Below are positions 1,620 to 26,423 of a DNA stretch of 35,092 nt, in pieces. Source of the DNA: a virus; the IMG/VR virus record IMGVR_UViG_3300011113_000313, positions 1 through 35,092 of that record; one strand, 5' to 3'. A program made the position numbers and the translations under genes. Below the pieces are notes generated by a model. The model had not been told where the DNA came from and made no database searches. It was given only the letters and a program-made list of their open reading frames with translations. Position 1 is the first letter of the stretch; each line of letters begins with the position of its first letter.

Positions 1620-3578
1620 TTAAAAGGGCTCATTTGTCACCTTTTTGCTGAATAAACCAGCCTCAGTTTCTTCGATCAAACCGTCCTCTTTAGCCTGCTT
1701 CACACGGGCCTTCGCTTGCCGTTCCTGCAACCCGGTGGCCTGTTGTACGAATGCGACCACTTGGCTGTATTTAGCCCCTTCGGGTAATTTGCCCCAATCG
1801 ATCGACATGGCCTTTCGGCCAACTGACTTTTCTGGCGCTCCTACCTCAATCCAGGCCATTCCCCTGTCTGCATGCTTTAGGTGGACTAACGACTGCGTCT
1901 TGGTTGCGATAAAATCGCTCGCAGTGACGCTAGGACGCAAGCCAGACCGCTTTCCGCGCTTGGTCACCTCTAGCTTATATGTGTACGTTCCTTGCTCATC
2001 CTGACCACAAGGCGACAGCATTAAAACGGCTCTTGCCCAATTCGTCAGCTCGGATGAGCCAAATCCGCTATACGCCTTGTCGTGGCCCTGATAACCGCTG
2101 CCGTCCCGTGTTGGCTTTGGCGTATGGTGCATAAGCATCCAAGCAAATCCGCCAGATAGGGCGAGCGGGTTAAGCAAATTACGCAAAAAGCCACCTGCCG
2201 TCTCCTGGCTGGATAAGTCGCCACCGATAAACGCAAGCAACGGATCTACCCAAGCTAAATCAGGCTTATGCTTTTCAGCCAAGCGCCGCATTCTATCGAC
2301 AAACCGCTCACCAGTAGACGTGCAATCACGCACGATCACGATGTTTTGCTTCACACGTTCCAACTCCTCTGCGGTGAGATCCAATGCTTTTAGAATGCCC
2401 TGTAACGCTTCAGCCACGTCGCCCTCGTCGTTCTCCGCCTGGACGATCAGCGACTTCAACGGCTTGCCGTGTGGCGATATGCCAAACAGATCACGCCCAG
2501 CCGCCCATGTGATCGCTGCCTGTAAGCACAGCACGCTTTTACCAAGGCCACTGCTACCCACCCACAAGGCCGATCCGCCACGGCAGATCCATCGCTTGCC
2601 TAGTAGTTGCGTTATATCCGCATCCTCCTTGAAATTGACCAACTGCTCCCAGCTATATGGCTCGGGGATATCACCATAGATTGTGCGCTCCATCCACTCC
2701 ATGTAGGTCAGCGTCGGCGCACCACACTCAACCAACTCCTGCTGTAAGCCTGTGGCCGTCCTCATCGCTCCGGGCAACCGCGACAATCGCCCAGCGTCCT
2801 TGTTGGCTGGATCGGGTTTCGAATGTTCAAGATGCTTGTAAATAAAATCGACTCGTTCAGCGAACTCCTTGGCATTAGCTGCTCGAATATCCACCCAGGC
2901 GTGTAGGCTACGTGCTCCGCTCTTAATGATAGCGGAAGTGGGTAATCCGCTGCGCTTAATAATGGCCCACTGCTCCGCCATCGTGCTTTCATCAAACTCG
3001 ATTAGGCAGTGGCGGTACTTAACGATCGACTCCGCTTTCCGATTCTTTCCGTTGTTAGCGTTAATCGATACATAAACGCCCACCGCATCGCCTTGCCACT
3101 CTTTCAACCCGTCGGCCTTAAACAGCTCCAGCCATTCCTCACGGCTTCGCGTCTCGCCTGCACCGTCCGGCCGCTCGCGATCGCCGTCCTTAATGGATCT
3201 TGTGATATTTATGAAATCACCCACGTCGAAACAGGTAGTAAGGAACTTATCGACCGGCCCGCTCTCCACGCTAATCGGCATAGGCGGCACCGGCAGGTCC
3301 TCCCGCACGATCGCCCCGTTCTGATAGCCATACTTGGCTTTCGGCCTCCAAGGCTCCCTGGCTGGCTTACTGTATGCGGATTTAACGGCTGCAACAGCTT
3401 CGTTTTGCGATAGCCCCACCTTGTAGGCCCACTCTTCTGCGTTCGTCGTTGCGTCGAACTCGGTTAGACCTTGGTCACGCCATTGGCAGGACAGCTTAAA
3501 TAGCTGCGTGTTGCGCTCACCTTCAGCGGCTCCATTGCGATGGATGGCTTCGATTGCGGGTGGTAGTGGTGCGATCAT
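1620..3578 (-). CDS. Primase-helicase (RepB/AEP-like primase fused to RepA-type AAA helicase)
   Basis: 652 residues. The N-terminal half has the RepB-like primase pattern: CLIEFDE at 191-197, a serine/histidine strand SGARSLHAWVD at 220-230, and RLSRLPG at 264-270. The C-terminal half is a RepA/RecA-like helicase, with Walker A GSSGLGKS at 341-348, Walker B LAWVD at 441-445 and a following MHH at 483-485. The end looks like a winged helix (about 600-640). Together these indicate initiation and unwinding at the phage origin. Its stop abuts the repeat cluster at 1487-1619. ATG at 3578 overlaps the radical SAM stop by 4 bases. Confidence 0.85.
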   Translation of the reverse strand: MIAPLPPAIEAIHRNGAAEGERNTQLFKLSCQWRDQGLTEFDATTNAEEWAYKVGLSQNEAVAAVKSAYSKPAREPWRPKAKYGYQNGAIVREDLPVPPMPISVESGPVDKFLTTCFDVGDFINITRSIKDGDRERPDGAGETRSREEWLELFKADGLKEWQGDAVGVYVSINANNGKNRKAESIVKYRHCLIEFDESTMAEQWAIIKRSGLPTSAIIKSGARSLHAWVDIRAANAKEFAERVDFIYKHLEHSKPDPANKDAGRLSRLPGAMRTATGLQQELVECGAPTLTYMEWMERTIYGDIPEPYSWEQLVNFKEDADITQLLGKRWICRGGSALWVGSSGLGKSVLCLQAAITWAAGRDLFGISPHGKPLKSLIVQAENDEGDVAEALQGILKALDLTAEELERVKQNIVIVRDCTSTGERFVDRMRRLAEKHKPDLAWVDPLLAFIGGDLSSQETAGGFLRNLLNPLALSGGFAWMLMHHTPKPTRDGSGYQGHDKAYSGFGSSELTNWARAVLMLSPCGQDEQGTYTYKLEVTKRGKRSGLRPSVTASDFIATKTQSLVHLKHADRGMAWIEVGAPEKSVGRKAMSIDWGKLPEGAKYSQVVAFVQQATGLQERQAKARVKQAKEDGLIEETEAGLFSKKVTNEPF

Positions 3579-4546
3579 GATAGAAGCTCCATTTGATCCT
3601 TAAAGCAGCTAGACCTTGTCTGGCCTCCTCGAGAATACTCATCCCAAGGCACAAATTTATAAAGACGACGGACAACCCATCTCTGGAATTTTTTAAGCTC
3701 CTTATTAGAATTATTGTAGACCATGGGATAAGGAAGCAGCCCAATCTCATTCATTTTTTCAAACCGATAGAAAATATCTTCCATCGTTTCTCCCGGCCAA
3801 TATCCACAAAGAAAATACACCATGATGTGCTGCGGTTTTATTCCTGCGTCCAAAAGAATGTTAACTCCGCGCATGAAGATCCCCTCATCCTTTCGATTGT
3901 CCCAAGCCGTATAGATTCGCTTAGTCTTAAATTGGTCGTCCCTGTATTTGATTTTGCAAAGCTCGGTTGCTCCTTCCTTGTGAATGAGGCGGATATTGAT
4001 CCCCTGGTTAAATGATACTTGAAAATCGTTTTCTAAGATTTCTTCTGTTTTCTGCTTCCAGTTTGGTTGCCCAAAAAAATCGTTATCCAAAAGAATGATT
4101 TGCTTCGGGTAGGGTTCGCCCCTCCATATTTTTTTTATGGTGGAATTGTCTCTGATCTTTCCCTCTTTTGTTGGAACTACACAAAAAGAGCACTTTAGGC
4201 GGCAGCCCCGCTGGCTGAACCCGATCGACTGCTTAAATGATGGATATATTGAATAATCGTATTCATCAAATTCTTGGCCCGTAATTTCTTCTATGGTTTG
4301 CGTTTTGCCGGATCCCGTTCCTCCAATAATTGCGTTTGGAAAGTTTTGCAGAAACAGCTCTCTTGCTGGCTGACTCCAAGCAAAGATGGAACTCCCGTAT
4401 ACTTTGTCATAATTGCCTTCCCATAGTTCCTTCTGAATAGATTTACTAAAATAAACTTCATCCCCTTGGCTTTTATGCCAAGCAGACAACTTCATTAAAG
4501 CCAAGTTTGGAAGCTTCCCGTCAAGATGTGTGATTCTTACGATCAT
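3575..4546 (-). CDS. Phage radical SAM protein of the replication region
   Basis: 323 residues. A CxxxCxxC cluster (C115, C119, C122, in RGCRLKCSFC) binds the 4Fe-4S cluster of radical SAM enzymes. The preceding region has a conserved GGTG and 'YSIYP', as in phage and MiaB-like radical SAM proteins with an N-terminal Rossmann/B12-binding-like part. The DNA is more AT-rich than its neighbours, which suggests separate acquisition. It is coupled on both sides (ATGA at 4543-4546 and 3575-3578), between a small gene and the primase-helicase. The substrate is unknown; an RNA, DNA base or peptide modification fits the family. Confidence 0.8.
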   Translation of the reverse strand: MIVRITHLDGKLPNLALMKLSAWHKSQGDEVYFSKSIQKELWEGNYDKVYGSSIFAWSQPARELFLQNFPNAIIGGTGSGKTQTIEEITGQEFDEYDYSIYPSFKQSIGFSQRGCRLKCSFCVVPTKEGKIRDNSTIKKIWRGEPYPKQIILLDNDFFGQPNWKQKTEEILENDFQVSFNQGINIRLIHKEGATELCKIKYRDDQFKTKRIYTAWDNRKDEGIFMRGVNILLDAGIKPQHIMVYFLCGYWPGETMEDIFYRFEKMNEIGLLPYPMVYNNSNKELKKFQRWVVRRLYKFVPWDEYSRGGQTRSSCFKDQMELLS

Positions 4547-4734
4547 TTTTTAGCAAACGCCTCCAGCGCCTTCACGATCACGTACTCGATCACAATCTCT
4601 GGATCTTTCTTTAGCTGCTTCAGCCCAAATGCATGTAAAGCCTTGGCCGTCTTTGCGTCGTAGGTTACGTCTACTAGTATTTGCTTCGGAGCAGGGCGTG
4701 ATTTACCAAAAGTAATTTTCCCCAGGTGTTTCAT
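4543..4734 (-). CDS. Small hypothetical protein
   Basis: 63 residues: a basic N-terminus, a beta strand (ILVDVTY), then a helical end rich in Lys and Glu. No family is recognised, though the strand-helix-helix layout would suit a small ribbon-helix-helix-like or accessory DNA protein. ATG at 4734 overlaps the preceding stop (ATGA), and its own stop overlaps the radical SAM start, so it is part of the coupled early operon. Confidence 0.6.
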   Translation of the reverse strand: MKHLGKITFGKSRPAPKQILVDVTYDAKTAKALHAFGLKQLKKDPEIVIEYVIVKALEAFAKK

Positions 4735-4907
4735 TTTTTGGCCTCCATAGCTTTTGCCTTATATCCCTCGGCCTGCTTCAGCATTTCCGTGGCCATCAGG
4801 ATCGCTAGATCCAGCCGAGTGCGTACTGCGTCGTACTGCTTTTTGAGCAAATTCTTCTTCGCACGTTCGAGCACTGCGAGATGCCAGGTGAGGCGTTTTA
4901 CGGACAT
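4731..4907 (-). CDS. Small coiled-coil protein (58 aa)
   Basis: ATG at 4907 opens 58 codons that begin MSVKRLTWHLAVLERAKKNL and end in a Lys/Ala-rich helix. The heptad-like spacing of Leu and charged residues suggests a coiled coil. It overlaps the end of the HTH gene upstream by 10 bases and overlaps the next start as ATGA. These overlaps at both ends are the main evidence that it is real. The function is unknown. Confidence 0.6.
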   Translation of the reverse strand: MSVKRLTWHLAVLERAKKNLLKKQYDAVRTRLDLAILMATEMLKQAEGYKAKAMEAKK

Positions 4908-5194
4908 AAACCATCCATTAACGATTTGATGTTAAATTTAGGAGTTTCTGTTTTTCTTTTCTTGTGAATACGCCTTGCACGTTGAGCGTAAATCTCACCA
5001 ACCCTGTCGCTCTTTTGAAAATCAAGGCGCACATCAAATTCTTCAGCCAACGAAATTAACTTTTTTGAGATGGCTTGTTTTGTTATTCCATACTGTTTTG
5101 CCGTTAAATTTAATGTGGTGGCGGGTTTGTCTTTTTTTCTTTTAGAAAAAACAAGCAGCCTAACTAAAGACGGTGGAAGAACGATGTCTCTCAC
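4898..5194 (-). CDS. HTH DNA-binding protein, paralogue B
   Basis: 98 residues from the GTG at 5194, chosen because it overlaps the preceding TGA as GTGA; the longer frame upstream encodes only improbable Arg/Cys-rich sequence. The HTH core AKQYGITKQAISKK (residues 32-45) and the tail KKRKTETPKFN match the protein at 997-1470, which is 59 residues longer, mainly at its N-terminus. It is probably a second regulator binding similar DNA. A run of A/T around the basic KRKKDK linker makes this stretch more AT-rich than the upstream genes. Confidence 0.7.
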   Translation of the reverse strand: MRDIVLPPSLVRLLVFSKRKKDKPATTLNLTAKQYGITKQAISKKLISLAEEFDVRLDFQKSDRVGEIYAQRARRIHKKRKTETPKFNIKSLMDGLCP

Positions 5195-5319
5195 CACTGC
5201 CCCATTCCCCACCTGTGCCTGTTGGCTCGCGCAGCGGTGACTGCGTCGGCGTATTGAGCGGGCGTGTAGGTGCAAATCACGCGGGCGGAGAACATGACTA
5301 GAAGATCCTGCAAGCTCAC
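5191..5319 (-). CDS. Small hypothetical protein (42 aa)
   Basis: GTG at 5319 overlaps the TGA of the upstream HTH gene (GTGA), and its own TGA overlaps the GTG of the downstream HTH gene in the same way. The product starts MSLQDLLVMF and ends HRWGMGQW: a short helical N-terminus with a basic, Trp-containing end. No domain is recognised. The coupling at both ends is the evidence that it is translated. Confidence 0.5.
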   Translation of the reverse strand: MSLQDLLVMFSARVICTYTPAQYADAVTAARANRHRWGMGQW

Positions 5320-5597
5320 AGCAGCGCCTTCGGCAGCGGCCCCGCCAGCTTGTAGTGGTACTTGCTGGCGTCGTACTCCAGCGGATAACCAAAAAAATCA
5401 CGCAGCAGATCGATGTCCCGCTGGATCGTCTTGTAGCTACATTCGAGCTCAACGCCTAACCGTGCACAGCTCGGCAGGCACAGATCCCGGCGCAACTTTC
5501 CAACGATTACGCCCAGGCGGCGGAACGTTGGACGAGTGTCCCCAAGGCCAGCGGCCCGATTGCGTTTTGATGCAAGTCTCGCGGCTCGTGTGCTCAC
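5316..5597 (-). CDS. HTH regulator, DeoR/WYL-type winged helix only
   Basis: 93 residues. The segment CSYKTIQRDIDLLRDFFGYP is the recognition helix and wing start of the HTH_11/DeoR fold found at the N-terminus of WYL-domain regulators. It is followed by the YDASKYHYKL wing. The WYL ligand domain is absent, so this is a stand-alone winged helix. GTG at 5597 overlaps the stop of the 3D-domain gene (GTGA). The basic N-terminus (first 25 residues) may extend DNA contact. It probably controls part of the early operon. Confidence 0.7.
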   Translation of the reverse strand: MSTRAARLASKRNRAAGLGDTRPTFRRLGVIVGKLRRDLCLPSCARLGVELECSYKTIQRDIDLLRDFFGYPLEYDASKYHYKLAGPLPKALL

Positions 5598-5995
5598 TTC
5601 ATCACCTCCACCATTGCCACCTTCGGCAACCGCATTGCGTTAAACTGCTTCTCACTTGCGGCGAACACGTCCACAACGGGCAACTTCCCACCGCTCGCCT
5701 TCTTACTCTTCACGGCAGTGCCCGTATCGACTGCCACCCACTCACGCTTCCCGCCCATGACGCGGATCTTCGACCAAAGCGGAATGATGTCTGGATCAAC
5801 GGCGCAGTGACGGCCAGCTCGCAAGCGGGTGCCAGTGCTCGATTGATACCGACTGCTCCACTCGTCCTCGCCGGGCCAATAGCCAGTGATGCGAACCTTG
5901 ATCTTTTTTGGCTGTGGTCGCATGTCGATCATGACGTTAGCGGCCTGCCCGCTGGTCATGCCCAAGATGGCGGCAATCCAAAGCAACGACCTCAC
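5594..5995 (-). CDS. Exported 3D-domain protein (double-psi beta-barrel, MltA/RlpA-like)
   Basis: 133 residues. The N-terminus is a signal peptide (hydrophobic residues 3-15, small residues near position 19). The rest follows the 3D (Asp-Asp-Asp) domain pattern: STGTRL, CAVDPDIIPL, VAVDTGTAV and PVVDVF, with the three conserved Asp regions present. 3D domains occur in cell-wall lytic transglycosylase-like proteins, so it probably acts on periplasmic murein. It lies in the early operon, far from the lysis cassette, so a role in wall remodelling or exclusion of other phages is as plausible as lysis. The GTG start overlaps the previous TGA. Confidence 0.7.
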   Translation of the reverse strand: MRSLLWIAAILGMTSGQAANVMIDMRPQPKKIKVRITGYWPGEDEWSSRYQSSTGTRLRAGRHCAVDPDIIPLWSKIRVMGGKREWVAVDTGTAVKSKKASGGKLPVVDVFAASEKQFNAMRLPKVAMVEVMK

Positions 5996-6144
5996 AGCCC
6001 ACTCCTAATCCGATCGATCAGATCGTTCTCGCGTCCTTCGGCAGCCGCCAGCGCAGCCTTTGCCTCCGCCAGCTCACGGGCCAGCGCCCGGACGCGGTTC
6101 AACAACTGCTCGTGCGTGGATTGTTCGGGCAATACTTCAATCAC
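5992..6144 (-). CDS. Small coiled-coil protein (50 aa)
   Basis: GTG at 6144 lies inside the last codons of the exonuclease gene, and its TGA overlaps the GTG of the 3D-domain gene. The product (start MIEVLPEQST) is almost entirely helical, with Ala, Glu and Arg in heptad-like spacing (RALARELAEAKAALAAAEGR). It is probably a coiled-coil accessory peptide. Reality rests on the tight coupling on both sides and the absence of any other gene here. Confidence 0.55.
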   Translation of the reverse strand: MIEVLPEQSTHEQLLNRVRALARELAEAKAALAAAEGRENDLIDRIRSGL

Positions 6145-22980: not shown

Positions 22981-23427
22981 TCAACTCGCGATAGAATTCG
23001 GATATGCGATGACTGCCAGCTTAAAAGTGCGACGCATTGTGCGCTCTTCATCGTCCGCCTCTGGCTCTACAGAATCTACCTTAGCATTGTAACAACGGGC
23101 AGATCCGATGGCCGTAGTGGCGTTTAGTCTAGCAGTTAAAGTACTTGAATCATAAAAAGCCTGCAGAATCTTGGAGCATTTTTGAGTGTGTGCGTCCACG
23201 GTTGTATCGTCGTAAGAGTCGTCCACAACGATTTCAACTGGCACGGCAAACACTCCCGATCCTCGCACTGGCTCTTCCGTTCCAAGCGTGGCTTTTATTA
23301 CGATAGATGGAGGCATGTTCTCGGTCTTATCGTGCGACAAGTGATAGGTAGGCCCGGTGACTGTTGCAGTTAGAAGCTCTTGAAAAGCAGCTTCAATTAA
23401 ACGATCGAGCATGGTGACGGCTGGCAT
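22981..23427 (-). CDS. Tail terminator/completion protein (gpU-position)
   Basis: 148 residues: a helical start (MLDRLIEAAFQELL), then strands PPSIVIKATLG and FAVPVEIVVDD, a helix ending QAFYDSS, and strands to the end. This helix-strand order matches phage minor tail/terminator proteins that cap the tube. It resumes the structural series after the five-gene insertion. ATG 23427; another ATG lies at 23412. Confidence 0.6.
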   Translation of the reverse strand: MPAVTMLDRLIEAAFQELLTATVTGPTYHLSHDKTENMPPSIVIKATLGTEEPVRGSGVFAVPVEIVVDDSYDDTTVDAHTQKCSKILQAFYDSSTLTARLNATTAIGSARCYNAKVDSVEPEADDEERTMRRTFKLAVIAYPNSIAS

Positions 23428-23444: not shown

Positions 23445-24059
23445 TCACCATATCGGGCGGATCGTCGGATCAAATGTGACCATGGTTTTACAACCCGCAC
23501 CGCCATGCGGAAACGTTGGCGTGTAATGATATCGCATTACGCAATCAGGCCAAGTCATCGTGGCCTTTCCCCTAGCGGCCTTTGGCGTATCCACGGATCG
23601 ATCGTTGTCCTCAATAATAAATGTACATGGTAGATCTGCCCCAGCCACGTAGTTAACGGCTTCGTAAAAGTGGCCCTCGTCCTCAGCTCCATCGCCCAAG
23701 AAGCACCACACCTTTGCCGTGCTTCCCTGCTCTTTAATGGTATGCGCCACTCCAGCCGCTATCCCGCAAGTGCCAGCCAACACGCTGGATGTATAAAAGT
23801 TAAGTTTGCGGTCGAATACAAACATGGATCTGCCCTCTTTAATCATCTGCTCGAGCACGTCGGGATCTCCGCCAGCCAGCAGGTAGTGATAATGGGATCT
23901 GTGGCTTGAGAAGATCCAATCGCCTGGCTTAATGTCTTTAAATATCTCGATTAGTTGATCTTCATTGCCGCCGCATAGGTGAATCAAATAAGGCAGTTTG
24001 CCCTGCTCAAATAGAGCCTTAATTCTCAATTCAAAATCAATTAGATCCTGTTTGTTCAT
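23445..24059 (-). CDS. E1-alpha-like ThDP-dependent enzyme subunit (minimal)
   Basis: 204 residues, about two-thirds of a usual E1-alpha. The thiamine-diphosphate motif is intact: GDG at 122-124 (LGDGAEDEGH) and the partner D151-N152 about 27 residues later, with LPCTFIIEDN matching the canonical LPxxFxxxNN. Upstream, SSHRSHYHYLLAGGDP and the AGTCGIAAGVAHTIK stretch match the E1-alpha cofactor-site region. It ends shortly after the His-Gly-Gly of HGGAG. It should pair with the beta-like subunit two genes upstream. No E2 or E3 gene is present, so this is unlikely to be a classical dehydrogenase complex. ATG overlaps the radical SAM stop. Confidence 0.85.
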   Translation of the reverse strand: MNKQDLIDFELRIKALFEQGKLPYLIHLCGGNEDQLIEIFKDIKPGDWIFSSHRSHYHYLLAGGDPDVLEQMIKEGRSMFVFDRKLNFYTSSVLAGTCGIAAGVAHTIKEQGSTAKVWCFLGDGAEDEGHFYEAVNYVAGADLPCTFIIEDNDRSVDTPKAARGKATMTWPDCVMRYHYTPTFPHGGAGCKTMVTFDPTIRPIW

Positions 24060-25147
24060 ACAAAAGCGTCGTGGCTATCCGTGGCCAGCTTTTCAAATAG
24101 CGCTACTTTGGCGTGATTTGCACACTCGTGCAGGCAACTGACGCCAGGGTTAAACGTCTTATGCCATTTGCGTGCCTCCTCGCTAAACCAAGCCTGCTTA
24201 AACGATTGCTCTTTAATTGAACCAATGCGGCCGTGATCGCTGTACGCAGTGTTGTGGCAGGCGTAAATATTGAGATCCGCACCGACAACGCAGACGGCTT
24301 GAGCGTATAGACAGCGATGAAACGGCCTGATGGGCGACTTGCTTGGGCTATCCAGATCGTAGGTTGTGTTAATGGTAAAATCGTCGTCACAGAATGATTG
24401 GCACTCGACCAACTGCTCCCTGACTCTAACTGCAATGGTGTTGTGATATTCTTTAAAGTTTTGAACGTATACGGGCGAAAAGCGAACGTTGCTCACGCCT
24501 GCATCTTTGAGTTGTTTAGCAAACGGAACCAATCCCTCGTAATTGTAGCGGGTAATTATAAAGTTAATCCCGAGGTCACAGCTTTCCGTTTTGGTATTTG
24601 AAAAGTTTTTAATGTTTTGCATCACCGAATCAAACGACCTATCGGGCACGTTACGGCTCGACGCCATCTGCTCTGCGCTTGTATAGTCCATGGAAATTCT
24701 AACCCACTTTGCGTTGCCCAATACTTCCGCCCTTTCGCCTGCGAGCAGTTGGCCGTTGGTAATGATCGACAGATCCAAATCAGACGAAACTGTCTTAGTC
24801 ATAATCTCGACAATGTCTTTATGCAGCAGAGGCTCTCCGCCACCGCTAAACGTAACGGCTTTTGTTCCGATAGTTGCCAGATCGTCGATTAGTTCAAGCG
24901 CCTTATTTCGTGGCATCACGTCACGCTCGTTCATGCTTGTGTGCATCCCTGCCTGTAGATGCAAGTCAGGCCGATCCTTGGGCCTCGTTGTGCCGTCAGA
25001 ATAAACGCAGAAACGACAGGCGTGATTACAGATATTCGTCGGTTTAATCCGCACGTAGATGGGTGCGGTGATAATATCGTCGCGGAAACTGGCTATCTTA
25101 TCGGGGAACGAAAAGATTTTGTAATCGCTGTATTTGTTTTGCTTCAC
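24056..25147 (-). CDS. Radical SAM/SPASM enzyme
   Basis: About 363 residues from GTG 25147 (GTGA overlap; a GTG one codon earlier is also possible). CNHACRFC gives C40, C44 and C47 for the 4Fe-4S cluster, and FSGGGEPLLH is the SAM-binding motif. The C-terminus has a SPASM-type Cys set (VCVVGADLNIYACHN, then SCLHEC) for an auxiliary cluster. It is transcribed between the two ThDP subunits. SPASM enzymes modify sugars, peptides or cofactors; here sugar or alcohol oxidation is the best guess. Confidence 0.85.
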   Translation of the reverse strand: MKQNKYSDYKIFSFPDKIASFRDDIITAPIYVRIKPTNICNHACRFCVYSDGTTRPKDRPDLHLQAGMHTSMNERDVMPRNKALELIDDLATIGTKAVTFSGGGEPLLHKDIVEIMTKTVSSDLDLSIITNGQLLAGERAEVLGNAKWVRISMDYTSAEQMASSRNVPDRSFDSVMQNIKNFSNTKTESCDLGINFIITRYNYEGLVPFAKQLKDAGVSNVRFSPVYVQNFKEYHNTIAVRVREQLVECQSFCDDDFTINTTYDLDSPSKSPIRPFHRCLYAQAVCVVGADLNIYACHNTAYSDHGRIGSIKEQSFKQAWFSEEARKWHKTFNPGVSCLHECANHAKVALFEKLATDSHDAFV

Positions 25148-25662
25148 CACTCATCCTTTCGCTCGACCAGCATGGTGGAAGTTCCGACGCTTAATCTGTC
25201 CAGTGCGCTTTGATACTCGCTGACTACGATTTCCTTTTTTAGTTCGACGATTGGGAAGTCGATCATTTCTCTAAGTGCTTTAGTAAAGTCCTGCGTATGA
25301 GTCGGGCCCGTGTATAAGGGTTTATATTTATTGCCAATGACTACCCGCAAAATGGCGGCCGGTTTGAATTGATTGCAGCTAATGTGTTGCGCTGCGCCCA
25401 GGTGATTCACGATGGCATCCAGCGCATTCAAAATAAAATCCATTCGTTCAATAAAGACAACGGGTTTTAGCCCCGCCAAACTAAGGCCGGTGGATAGTCC
25501 CACCATTAGATTTTCGGCGACGGGTGTTTCGATGAGTTGCGAATCTGAGACGTGATTCAGCGTGCCCGCTGCACGCCCGCCTATCTTTACGCCGTACCCT
25601 ATAAACCTGACGGCTGGATCGGCCGCCAGTAAATCCATTGCCTGCGTCAGCTCTTGCTTCAC
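25144..25662 (-). CDS. E1-beta-like transketolase pyrimidine-binding domain protein
   Basis: 172 residues from GTG 25662 (GTGA overlap with the previous stop; the longer frame to 25758 is antisense-like junk). The fold is the pyrimidine-binding domain of transketolase/E1-beta: ETPVAENLMVG carries the conserved Glu (E50) that activates the cofactor ring, then GLSLAGLKPVVFIERMDFIL and a DAIVNH helix follow. The usual C-terminal transketolase_C domain is missing, so the protein is about half normal length. It should form an alpha2beta2 enzyme with the product of 23445-24059. Confidence 0.85.
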   Translation of the reverse strand: MKQELTQAMDLLAADPAVRFIGYGVKIGGRAAGTLNHVSDSQLIETPVAENLMVGLSTGLSLAGLKPVVFIERMDFILNALDAIVNHLGAAQHISCNQFKPAAILRVVIGNKYKPLYTGPTHTQDFTKALREMIDFPIVELKKEIVVSEYQSALDRLSVGTSTMLVERKDEW

Positions 25663-26423
25663 AGCAACCCTTCCTCTTCCAAAATATGCAGAGCGTGAAA
25701 TGCGCTTCTGGCCATCTGCCCGCGTTGGGTAAATATGACTGTTTCTGTATCTGCACAAAGCAGGTGGAAAGCATCCTTGTTGTGGACGTTAAGGCACGGC
25801 CAGCTCGGCCCGGTGGATGTTCCGATCACGGCTTTTGCTTTGGCAGCCGTCGCTCCTATCCAAGTTACATTTTTATTATCAAACGCTGGGCATAATCCAG
25901 TATCCATCGTGCTGATCACCCGATGACCCTTGCTAACTAGTTTAGATACTAGGTTACGAAAATCGTCAGGATTAAAATTTGTGAATTGACCAGAGAGTCC
26001 TGGCGAATTGATGACTACTATGTCGCATTCTGGCGCCATGGGCATAAAGGAATCCAACGCCGAATAATCAAATAACAGATCTTCAACTTTACGGATCGGA
26101 TTTTTAACGCACATCCTGCTGGCCAGTTCTTCAAACCAGCACAGGTGAAATTGGGCAAAGTTTAGTTTATCGGGGTGACGTTCCCAATATCCGCCCGTGT
26201 TACGCCACGAATCAATGCTATTGGCTGGCGCCTCGTTGATTGGGCGAATGCGTAACCGTAAAGATATGTCGCTACGCAAGGCGTCAATTTCCTCAAACTT
26301 GCACAGCTCTGGATTATGGTAGTGCGTGATTTCAAGATCAGGATTTTGCAGGCATAGCCGACGCAAAAAGTTTAGTTGTACTAGGTTGTCGCCTAACCGC
26401 AGTGCGTTGTGAGTATGAATCAC
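25659..26423 (-). CDS. GT-B-like glycosyltransferase (GT9/heptosyltransferase-like)
   Basis: 254 residues from GTG 26423. ALRLGDNLVQLNFLRRLC at the start matches the GDxxxxxPxxxxL opening of GT9 enzymes, CDIVVINSPGLSGQ the mid-domain strand, and VIGTSTGPSWPCLNV the nucleotide-sugar-binding GPSGPxH-like end. It is shorter than typical heptosyltransferases. Within the coupled cluster it probably transfers an unusual sugar to a glycan or protein. Confidence 0.65.
   Translation of the reverse strand: MIHTHNALRLGDNLVQLNFLRRLCLQNPDLEITHYHNPELCKFEEIDALRSDISLRLRIRPINEAPANSIDSWRNTGGYWERHPDKLNFAQFHLCWFEELASRMCVKNPIRKVEDLLFDYSALDSFMPMAPECDIVVINSPGLSGQFTNFNPDDFRNLVSKLVSKGHRVISTMDTGLCPAFDNKNVTWIGATAAKAKAVIGTSTGPSWPCLNVHNKDAFHLLCADTETVIFTQRGQMARSAFHALHILEEEGLL

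Follow-up and report, generated by a model that had tools for sequence, protein, structure and literature searches.

The stretch of DNA considered here, the 35,092-nucleotide IMG/VR virus record IMGVR_UViG_3300011113_000313 taken at its full length (positions 1 to 35,092; hereafter, the window), carries a gene cassette in which two short proteins, denoted here as alpha and beta, resemble the two subunits of the thiamine diphosphate (ThDP)-dependent E1 component of 2-oxo-acid dehydrogenases, with the gene for a radical S-adenosylmethionine (SAM) protein lying between them. As judged from their sequences, alpha and beta constitute a minimal two-domain ThDP enzyme of the E1 type, made of a PP and a Pyr domain, and its carriers are many freshwater phages as well as some bacteria and archaea. 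By analogy with known sugar-modifying enzymes, we consider it somewhat probable that the cassette encodes a two-step module, in which an oxidase would make a sugar ketone and a ThDP carboligase would add a two-carbon (C2) unit to it, the resulting branched sugar being destined for a surface glycan.

The original prediction had described beta as a Pyr domain alone, alpha as a protein falling short of the end of E1-alpha, and the pair as devoid of its usual partners, and these descriptions held. Alpha matches the E1_dh family (PF00676, E-value 1.6e-17) only over positions 6-174 of the 300 in the profile and ends at 204 residues, the C-terminal third of E1-alpha, with its phosphorylation loop, being missing. 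Beta matches Transket_pyr (PF02779, 3.5e-6), it aligns with E1-beta chains over their first half only, and it stops at residue 172, where the transketolase C-terminal domain would start. In E1-beta, a Glu residue contacts the ThDP aminopyrimidine, and the C-terminal domain, absent from the window protein, binds E2. No E2 or E3 gene was found in the cassette, where the neighbors are genes for a glycosyltransferase, a protein named p254, the radical SAM protein and a 148-residue protein. Because both the E2-binding domain and the E2/E3 partners are lacking, it is unlikely that alpha and beta work in a 2-oxo-acid dehydrogenase complex. The residues needed for ThDP chemistry are nonetheless in place: alpha retains the GDG-X27-N motif (residues 122-152) and the E1-type His region, and beta keeps the catalytic-Glu position (TPVAEN) and the conserved His (THTQ). 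In the family alignment, which spans phages, bacteria and archaea, AEN is nearly universal, and the other ThDP motifs are conserved throughout as well.

Both proteins also match PHROG 34187 (alpha at 1.2e-72 over positions 13-195 of 405, beta at 3.2e-42 over positions 240-403), a family annotated as of unknown function that represents the fused form of the short family. The cyanophage members of this PHROG (from S-SM2 and P-TIM68, labeled "transketolase central region-containing protein") belong to the same family as the two window proteins, but they are single fused chains of about 400 residues encoded beside a Zn-alcohol dehydrogenase (Zn-ADH), whereas the window has two genes, in the reverse order and with the radical SAM gene between them. 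The structure was predicted with AlphaFold2 for a fused viral homolog of 396 residues (L056), rather than for the window's own split pair, from a 68-row alignment that included the window proteins. The model reached a mean predicted local distance difference test score (pLDDT) of 95 and a predicted template modeling score of 0.94. It overlays the PP and Pyr domains of human transketolase (residues 17-478; Z 21.7, 359 residues aligned, 3.7 Å) and ends where the transketolase C domain starts, and its second half fits residues 1-178 of the approximately 325 of E1-beta (Z about 24, 1.6-1.7 Å). Transketolase is composed of PP, Pyr and C-terminal domains, whereas the short family stops after the first two. 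A minimal PP and Pyr heteromer without a third domain has been described for ComDE/RhiEF (PMC12141560), similar in this respect to the window pair. However, ComDE/RhiEF are of the decarboxylase type, and the window proteins match the E1 and transketolase families; these were the best matches both in sequence and in structure, and no ComDE/RhiEF-type decarboxylase appeared among the structure matches listed, though such an absence is no disproof of a kinship.

Whether other phages have the same short forms, a check named in the original prediction, was addressed by a search of viral contigs, which found 138 relatives, from which 80 loci were kept. In two cultured cyanophages, the fused form lies within sugar-biosynthesis clusters that hold a Zn-ADH, a sugar kinase, epimerases and nucleotidyltransferases. 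A search of a cellular collection with one genome per species recovered relatives, at 55-67% identity, on 22 contigs that belong mostly to metagenome-assembled genomes (MAGs) and that were assigned to Nanoarchaeota, Woesearchaeota, Pacearchaeota, Nitrospirae, Verrucomicrobia, Methylococcaceae, Desulfobacterales and others. In these cells, alpha has 200-241 residues and beta mostly 174-180, or both are fused in a chain of 392-395 residues (fused chains span about 390-405 residues overall). Several of the cellular copies are found on long contigs, beside genes for a nucleoside diphosphate (NDP)-sugar epimerase, an aminotransferase and a glycosyltransferase, and the cyanophage and cellular neighborhoods taken together feature NDP-sugar epimerases, sugar kinases, PseC-like aminotransferases and glycosyltransferases. 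With identities of 55-97% across the 80 viral and 22 cellular loci, the ThDP genes of the window are not a chance find. The original prediction had further viewed the pair as a distinct subfamily shaped for phage use. The second half of this proposal has to be abandoned, since bacteria and archaea encode proteins of identical domain content, split or fused, a kind of finding that the prediction itself had named as its refutation; a phage-only subfamily is ruled out by these copies and, on the sequences at hand, the domain content is not a phage invention. The first half was upheld, as 58 short alphas formed one clade (support 100/100) against seven full-length plasmid E1-alphas, a small reference set that did not include AviB1 or Pau11, the sugar-modification proteins discussed below. 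In an earlier tree with DXS/TktA outgroups, branches were very long and the support for the family was only 71. Plasmid-borne short forms were considered and dropped, as the plasmid matches showed some 25-34% identity among the rows listed and were of full length where examined; the reference plasmid E1 loci that were fetched are full length and mostly accompanied by E2.

The position of the radical SAM gene between the two halves had been regarded as an oddity. This notion changed when the neighborhoods were compared, because a radical SAM gene turned out to be the usual partner of the pair, replaceable by a Zn-ADH. Among 57 representative loci made non-redundant at 90% alpha identity, and with oxidase genes counted up to 2.6 kb away on the same strand, all 57 had an adjacent oxidase: radical SAM in 34, Zn-ADH in 22 and both in one (where the radical SAM match is weak), with none having neither. 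The gap between ThDP and oxidase genes has a median of 6 bp and is at most 150 bp in 51 of the loci, and matches to either oxidase are 17 times denser near the ThDP pair than elsewhere in these loci. The presence of the radical SAM gene in the cassette is no accident. In four phage loci (L065, L068, L069 and L075), a Zn-ADH accompanies split alpha and beta and p254, and in two of these (L068 and L069) it sits between beta and alpha, behind a homolog of the 577-residue glycosyltransferase, which reproduces the layout of the window with the dehydrogenase in place of the radical SAM protein. The exchange of one oxidase for the other points to the same net step, that is, the conversion of an alcohol to a ketone. 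The NAD-dependent dehydrogenases of 2-deoxy-scyllo-inosamine (DOIA), such as NeoA, offer a precedent for such an exchange; KanK, taken at first as the alcohol dehydrogenase counterpart of the radical SAM enzyme BtrN, was discarded because published work shows that it is a different enzyme.

The radical SAM protein of the window matches Radical_SAM (5.1e-18) and SPASM (4.7e-5), and seven of its cysteines are invariant in 26 homologs, three of them in the CxxxCxxC motif (C41, C45 and C48) and four downstream (C280, C298, C339 and C343). From the sequence, these last four are expected to be the ligands of a single auxiliary cluster, of the twitch type found in BtrN. The predicted structure (pLDDT 90) is closest to those of DesII (Z 25.8 over 331 residues), SkfB and BlsE (Z 23.8), with BtrN at Z 17.1. 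The sugar- or cyclitol-acting BtrN, DesII and BlsE share with it the radical SAM fold and a C-terminal domain of the auxiliary-cluster type, at an identity of only 14-20%. DesII dehydrogenates thymidine diphosphate (TDP)-quinovose (PMC11434129) and BtrN, with its single four-Cys auxiliary cluster, oxidizes DOIA (PMC9012708), and by analogy we propose that the window protein is an alcohol-to-ketone dehydrogenase. When a cellular radical SAM protein (from locus L090) was used as the query against the viral contigs, nothing was found. Locus L147 (positions 3878-5998), which shares its contig with L052, has two adjacent radical SAM genes from different subfamilies between its beta and alpha genes.

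The ThDP half of the module is exchanged too. In sister phages, defined by a capsid protein 81-100% identical to that of the window, the glycosyltransferase gene is constant and the slot between it and the 148-residue gene varies. The slot may hold, as in the window, p254, beta, radical SAM and alpha; it may hold a 222-residue protein together with methyltransferase genes, to which a DUF5672 gene is added in some cases; or, in L223, L228, L234 and L240, it holds p254, proteins of 213 and 151 residues, a methyltransferase-like protein and a radical SAM protein 93-95% identical to that of the window (for example, L228:12700-15589). The 213-residue protein matches Transketolase_N (4.4e-12; PP domain) and the 151-residue one Transket_pyr (1.6e-22; Pyr domain), their nearest PDB chains are split transketolase and DXS, and the C domain is again absent. 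Separate PP and Pyr genes, as in this pair, are known from the miharamycin and amipurimycin transketolases and from that of Carboxydothermus (6yak/6yaj), but the Carboxydothermus chains have 309 and 341 residues. Related arrangements occur elsewhere: another virus (L270:4989-7906) has in a row genes for a related radical SAM protein, transketolase-type PP (241 residues) and Pyr (160 residues) proteins and a short-chain dehydrogenase/reductase (SDR), and one archaeal contig (L102:5587-9151) carries transketolase-type PP, Pyr, radical SAM, alpha and beta in a single run. From the transketolase-type pair and the mutual replacement of Zn-ADH and radical SAM, it follows that both the ThDP type and the oxidase type are exchangeable, and that the placement of an oxidase beside a ThDP enzyme stays. 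Where filled with methyltransferases and DUF5672, the slot looks like a variable glycan-modification slot. In L190:8658-9808, L218:3095-4392 and L210:8886-10859, methyltransferases or a DUF5672 protein are each followed by the conserved 222-residue protein, for which no Pfam match was found.

On these observations, alpha and beta most likely act as a stand-alone carboligase. In the proposed scheme, the twitch radical SAM protein would form a ketone by abstracting hydrogen from a carbinol carbon and handing the second electron on to the auxiliary cluster, the mechanism proposed for BtrN; the net oxidation would be that performed by DesII on TDP-quinovose and, in other loci, the Zn-ADH would carry out this step. 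The ThDP enzyme would decarboxylate pyruvate, or another short 2-oxo acid, and the C2 (acetyl) carbanion would join the ketone on the sugar. The C2 unit would be acetyl for the E1-type pair and hydroxyacetyl for the transketolase-type pair, and the SDR, where present, might reduce the new carbonyl. Finally, the accompanying glycosyltransferase would transfer the branched-chain sugar to a surface glycan, which could be that of the virion or that of the host, as the late-operon position would fit either. Support for this proposal came from AviB1/AviB2, Pau11/Pau12 and KbDH-alpha/beta (alphaKADH2), likewise pairs of the E1-alpha and E1-beta type in a sugar-modification setting (that of antibiotics for AviB1/AviB2 and Pau11/Pau12), which are held to add pyruvate-derived C2 branches to keto-sugars, and from split transketolases, which have been proposed to add hydroxyacetyl branches once an oxidoreductase has made the ketone (PMC12247030, PMC4425429).

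Several facts weigh against this scheme. Pau11 and Pau12 are of full length (325 and 345 residues), whereas the window pair lacks both C-terminal regions and has a radical SAM protein or a Zn-ADH as its regular neighbor; such a double loss is without precedent among the sugar-branching pairs that could be checked. The alpha tree contains only three or four partner switches, so the 57 loci, being related, are not independent, and the Zn-ADH query set was assembled from neighbors of the same ThDP genes. The radical SAM partners in archaea mostly belong to another subfamily, 22-26% identical to the window protein, and their reaction may differ. Lastly, most cellular relatives come from MAG contigs, some of which are short, and for some a viral origin or mis-binning is possible.

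The same two enzymes might serve for chain extension or aldehyde ligation, the oxidase giving an aldehyde or a 2-keto sugar that the ThDP enzyme would elongate, in the manner of a transketolase, to a higher-carbon sugar. This would suit the transketolase-type replacement pair beside the same radical SAM gene, as well as the genes for a phosphoheptose isomerase, a kinase and a nucleotidyltransferase that lie close to the fused form in cyanophages, but it appears rather unlikely considering that the sugar-acting E1-type pairs branch ring ketones with a C2 unit (PMC12247030). BtrN and DesII, too, act on secondary alcohols. Since ThDP carboligations are reversible, the oxidized sugar could also be the donor, with the ThDP enzyme working as a lyase that cleaves the keto-sugar and so shortens or remodels it, a reaction akin to the cleavage of acetoin or of a ketose. 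E1-type acetoin:dichlorophenolindophenol (Ao:DCPIP) oxidoreductases do cleave acetoin (PMC12247030), but the setting is one of glycan biosynthesis and no acceptor-side enzymes (E2/E3) were seen in the cassette, which renders a lyase improbable.

Two further explanations were considered. The best likeness of the window proteins to a curated family is to pyruvate dehydrogenase E1, as would be expected of an ordinary pyruvate or 2-oxo-acid dehydrogenase E1 fragment, or of an auxiliary metabolic gene feeding central metabolism during infection. However, this likeness amounts to 85 bits against a cut-off of 394, there is neither a C domain nor E2/E3, a radical SAM or alcohol dehydrogenase gene adjoins in the 57 loci, and the short forms make a separate clade, all of which leaves this explanation very improbable. 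The shortness of the subunits might finally suggest a decaying remnant devoid of catalytic function, but the motifs are kept across phages, bacteria and archaea, in-frame fused and split forms exist, and the fold is predicted with high confidence, so that decay is hardly credible.

The genome is that of a tailed double-stranded DNA phage, encoding a terminase, a portal, a P22-type coat protein and a tape measure protein (Pfam and PHROG matches), and the cassette forms a five-gene run on the minus strand, between the capsid and tail regions, in the order glycosyltransferase, p254, beta, radical SAM and alpha (Table 1). Adjacent genes overlap by 4-7 bp, which indicates one translationally coupled run. 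The longest open frame of beta extends to a TTG at 25758; its start was taken as 25662, favored by the overlap with the p254 stop and by the homologs. No match to p254 was found in Pfam or PHROG. Its family has a conserved STGPSWP-type motif and is found together with the ThDP pair in phages and cells. Its identification as a family-9 glycosyltransferase was dropped, because profile comparison with GT9 neighbors gave a probability of about 1% or less, and comparison with the 222-residue slot protein gave a similarly low value (about 1% or less). A second radical SAM gene, unrelated to the cassette, is located at 3575-4546 on the minus strand (PHROG 9298, 5.9e-60) and overlaps a primase-like gene (1620-3578).

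Table 1. Coordinates in the window of the cassette genes, their motifs and the flanking slot marker.
Feature	Position	Strand	Basis or remark
148-aa protein, downstream end marker of the swap slot	22981..23427	minus	Retained in sister phages however the slot is filled; no family assignment
Alpha, 204-aa ThDP subunit of the E1-alpha type (PP domain), lacking the C-terminal part found in E1-alpha	23445..24059	minus	ATG start; E1_dh PF00676, PHROG 34187
ThDP/Mg binding motif GDG(AEDEGHFYEAVNYVAGADLPCTFIIED)N, alpha residues 122-152	23604..23696	minus	Sequence and family alignment
HRSHYH motif, alpha residues 53-58	23886..23903	minus	phmmer and family alignment; opposite the AYRAH histidine region of E1-alpha
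Radical SAM protein, 364 aa, predicted twitch-type (shortened SPASM) C-terminal domain	24056..25150	minus	Radical_SAM, SPASM, model
Stretch with putative auxiliary-cluster cysteines C280, C298, C339, C343	24122..24313	minus	Invariant in 26 homologs
Radical SAM CxxxCxxC, C41/C45/C48	25007..25030	minus	Invariant in 26 homologs
Beta, E1-beta-type Pyr-domain subunit, 172 aa	25144..25662	minus	GTG start; Transket_pyr, PHROG 34187
THTQ motif, beta residues 121-124	25291..25302	minus	Lines up with THSQ, conserved in E1-beta
Proposed catalytic Glu, beta E50 in TPVAEN	25513..25515	minus	phmmer alignment to 1qs0_B and 1ik6
p254, 254 aa	25659..26423	minus	Accompanies the ThDP pair in several loci of phages and cells
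Two-domain family-2-like glycosyltransferase, 577 aa	26420..28153	minus	Glycos_transf_2 1.1e-12; PHROG 13126 and 14945 (glycosyltransferases); constant gene on the upstream side of the slot

Descriptions of E1-type and transketolase-type ThDP enzymes normally include a third domain, at the C-terminus. The short E1-type family and the parallel transketolase-type one suggest that this domain may be missing in what appear to be stand-alone carbon-carbon ligases, and their regular pairing with a radical SAM protein or a Zn-ADH offers a testable reaction scheme for a phage family annotated as of unknown function. In a 2025 review, ketone-accepting ThDP enzymes are listed from only three of the nine superfamilies, and viruses are mentioned as one possible source of surprising functions (PMC12247030). 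The building of branched sugars would, if true, be a type of chemistry that has not so far been known from viruses. The chances seem to us evenly balanced that the cassette represents an exchangeable two-step sugar-branching unit, made of a twitch radical SAM protein or a Zn-ADH plus a carboligase of the E1 or transketolase type without its C domain, which would occur both in a swap slot of the phage late operon and in bacterial and archaeal glycan loci and would provide the first virus-encoded ketone-accepting ThDP carboligases. Phages of this group appear to swap whole modules of sugar chemistry beside a constant glycosyltransferase, possibly varying in this way a glycan of the virion or the host.

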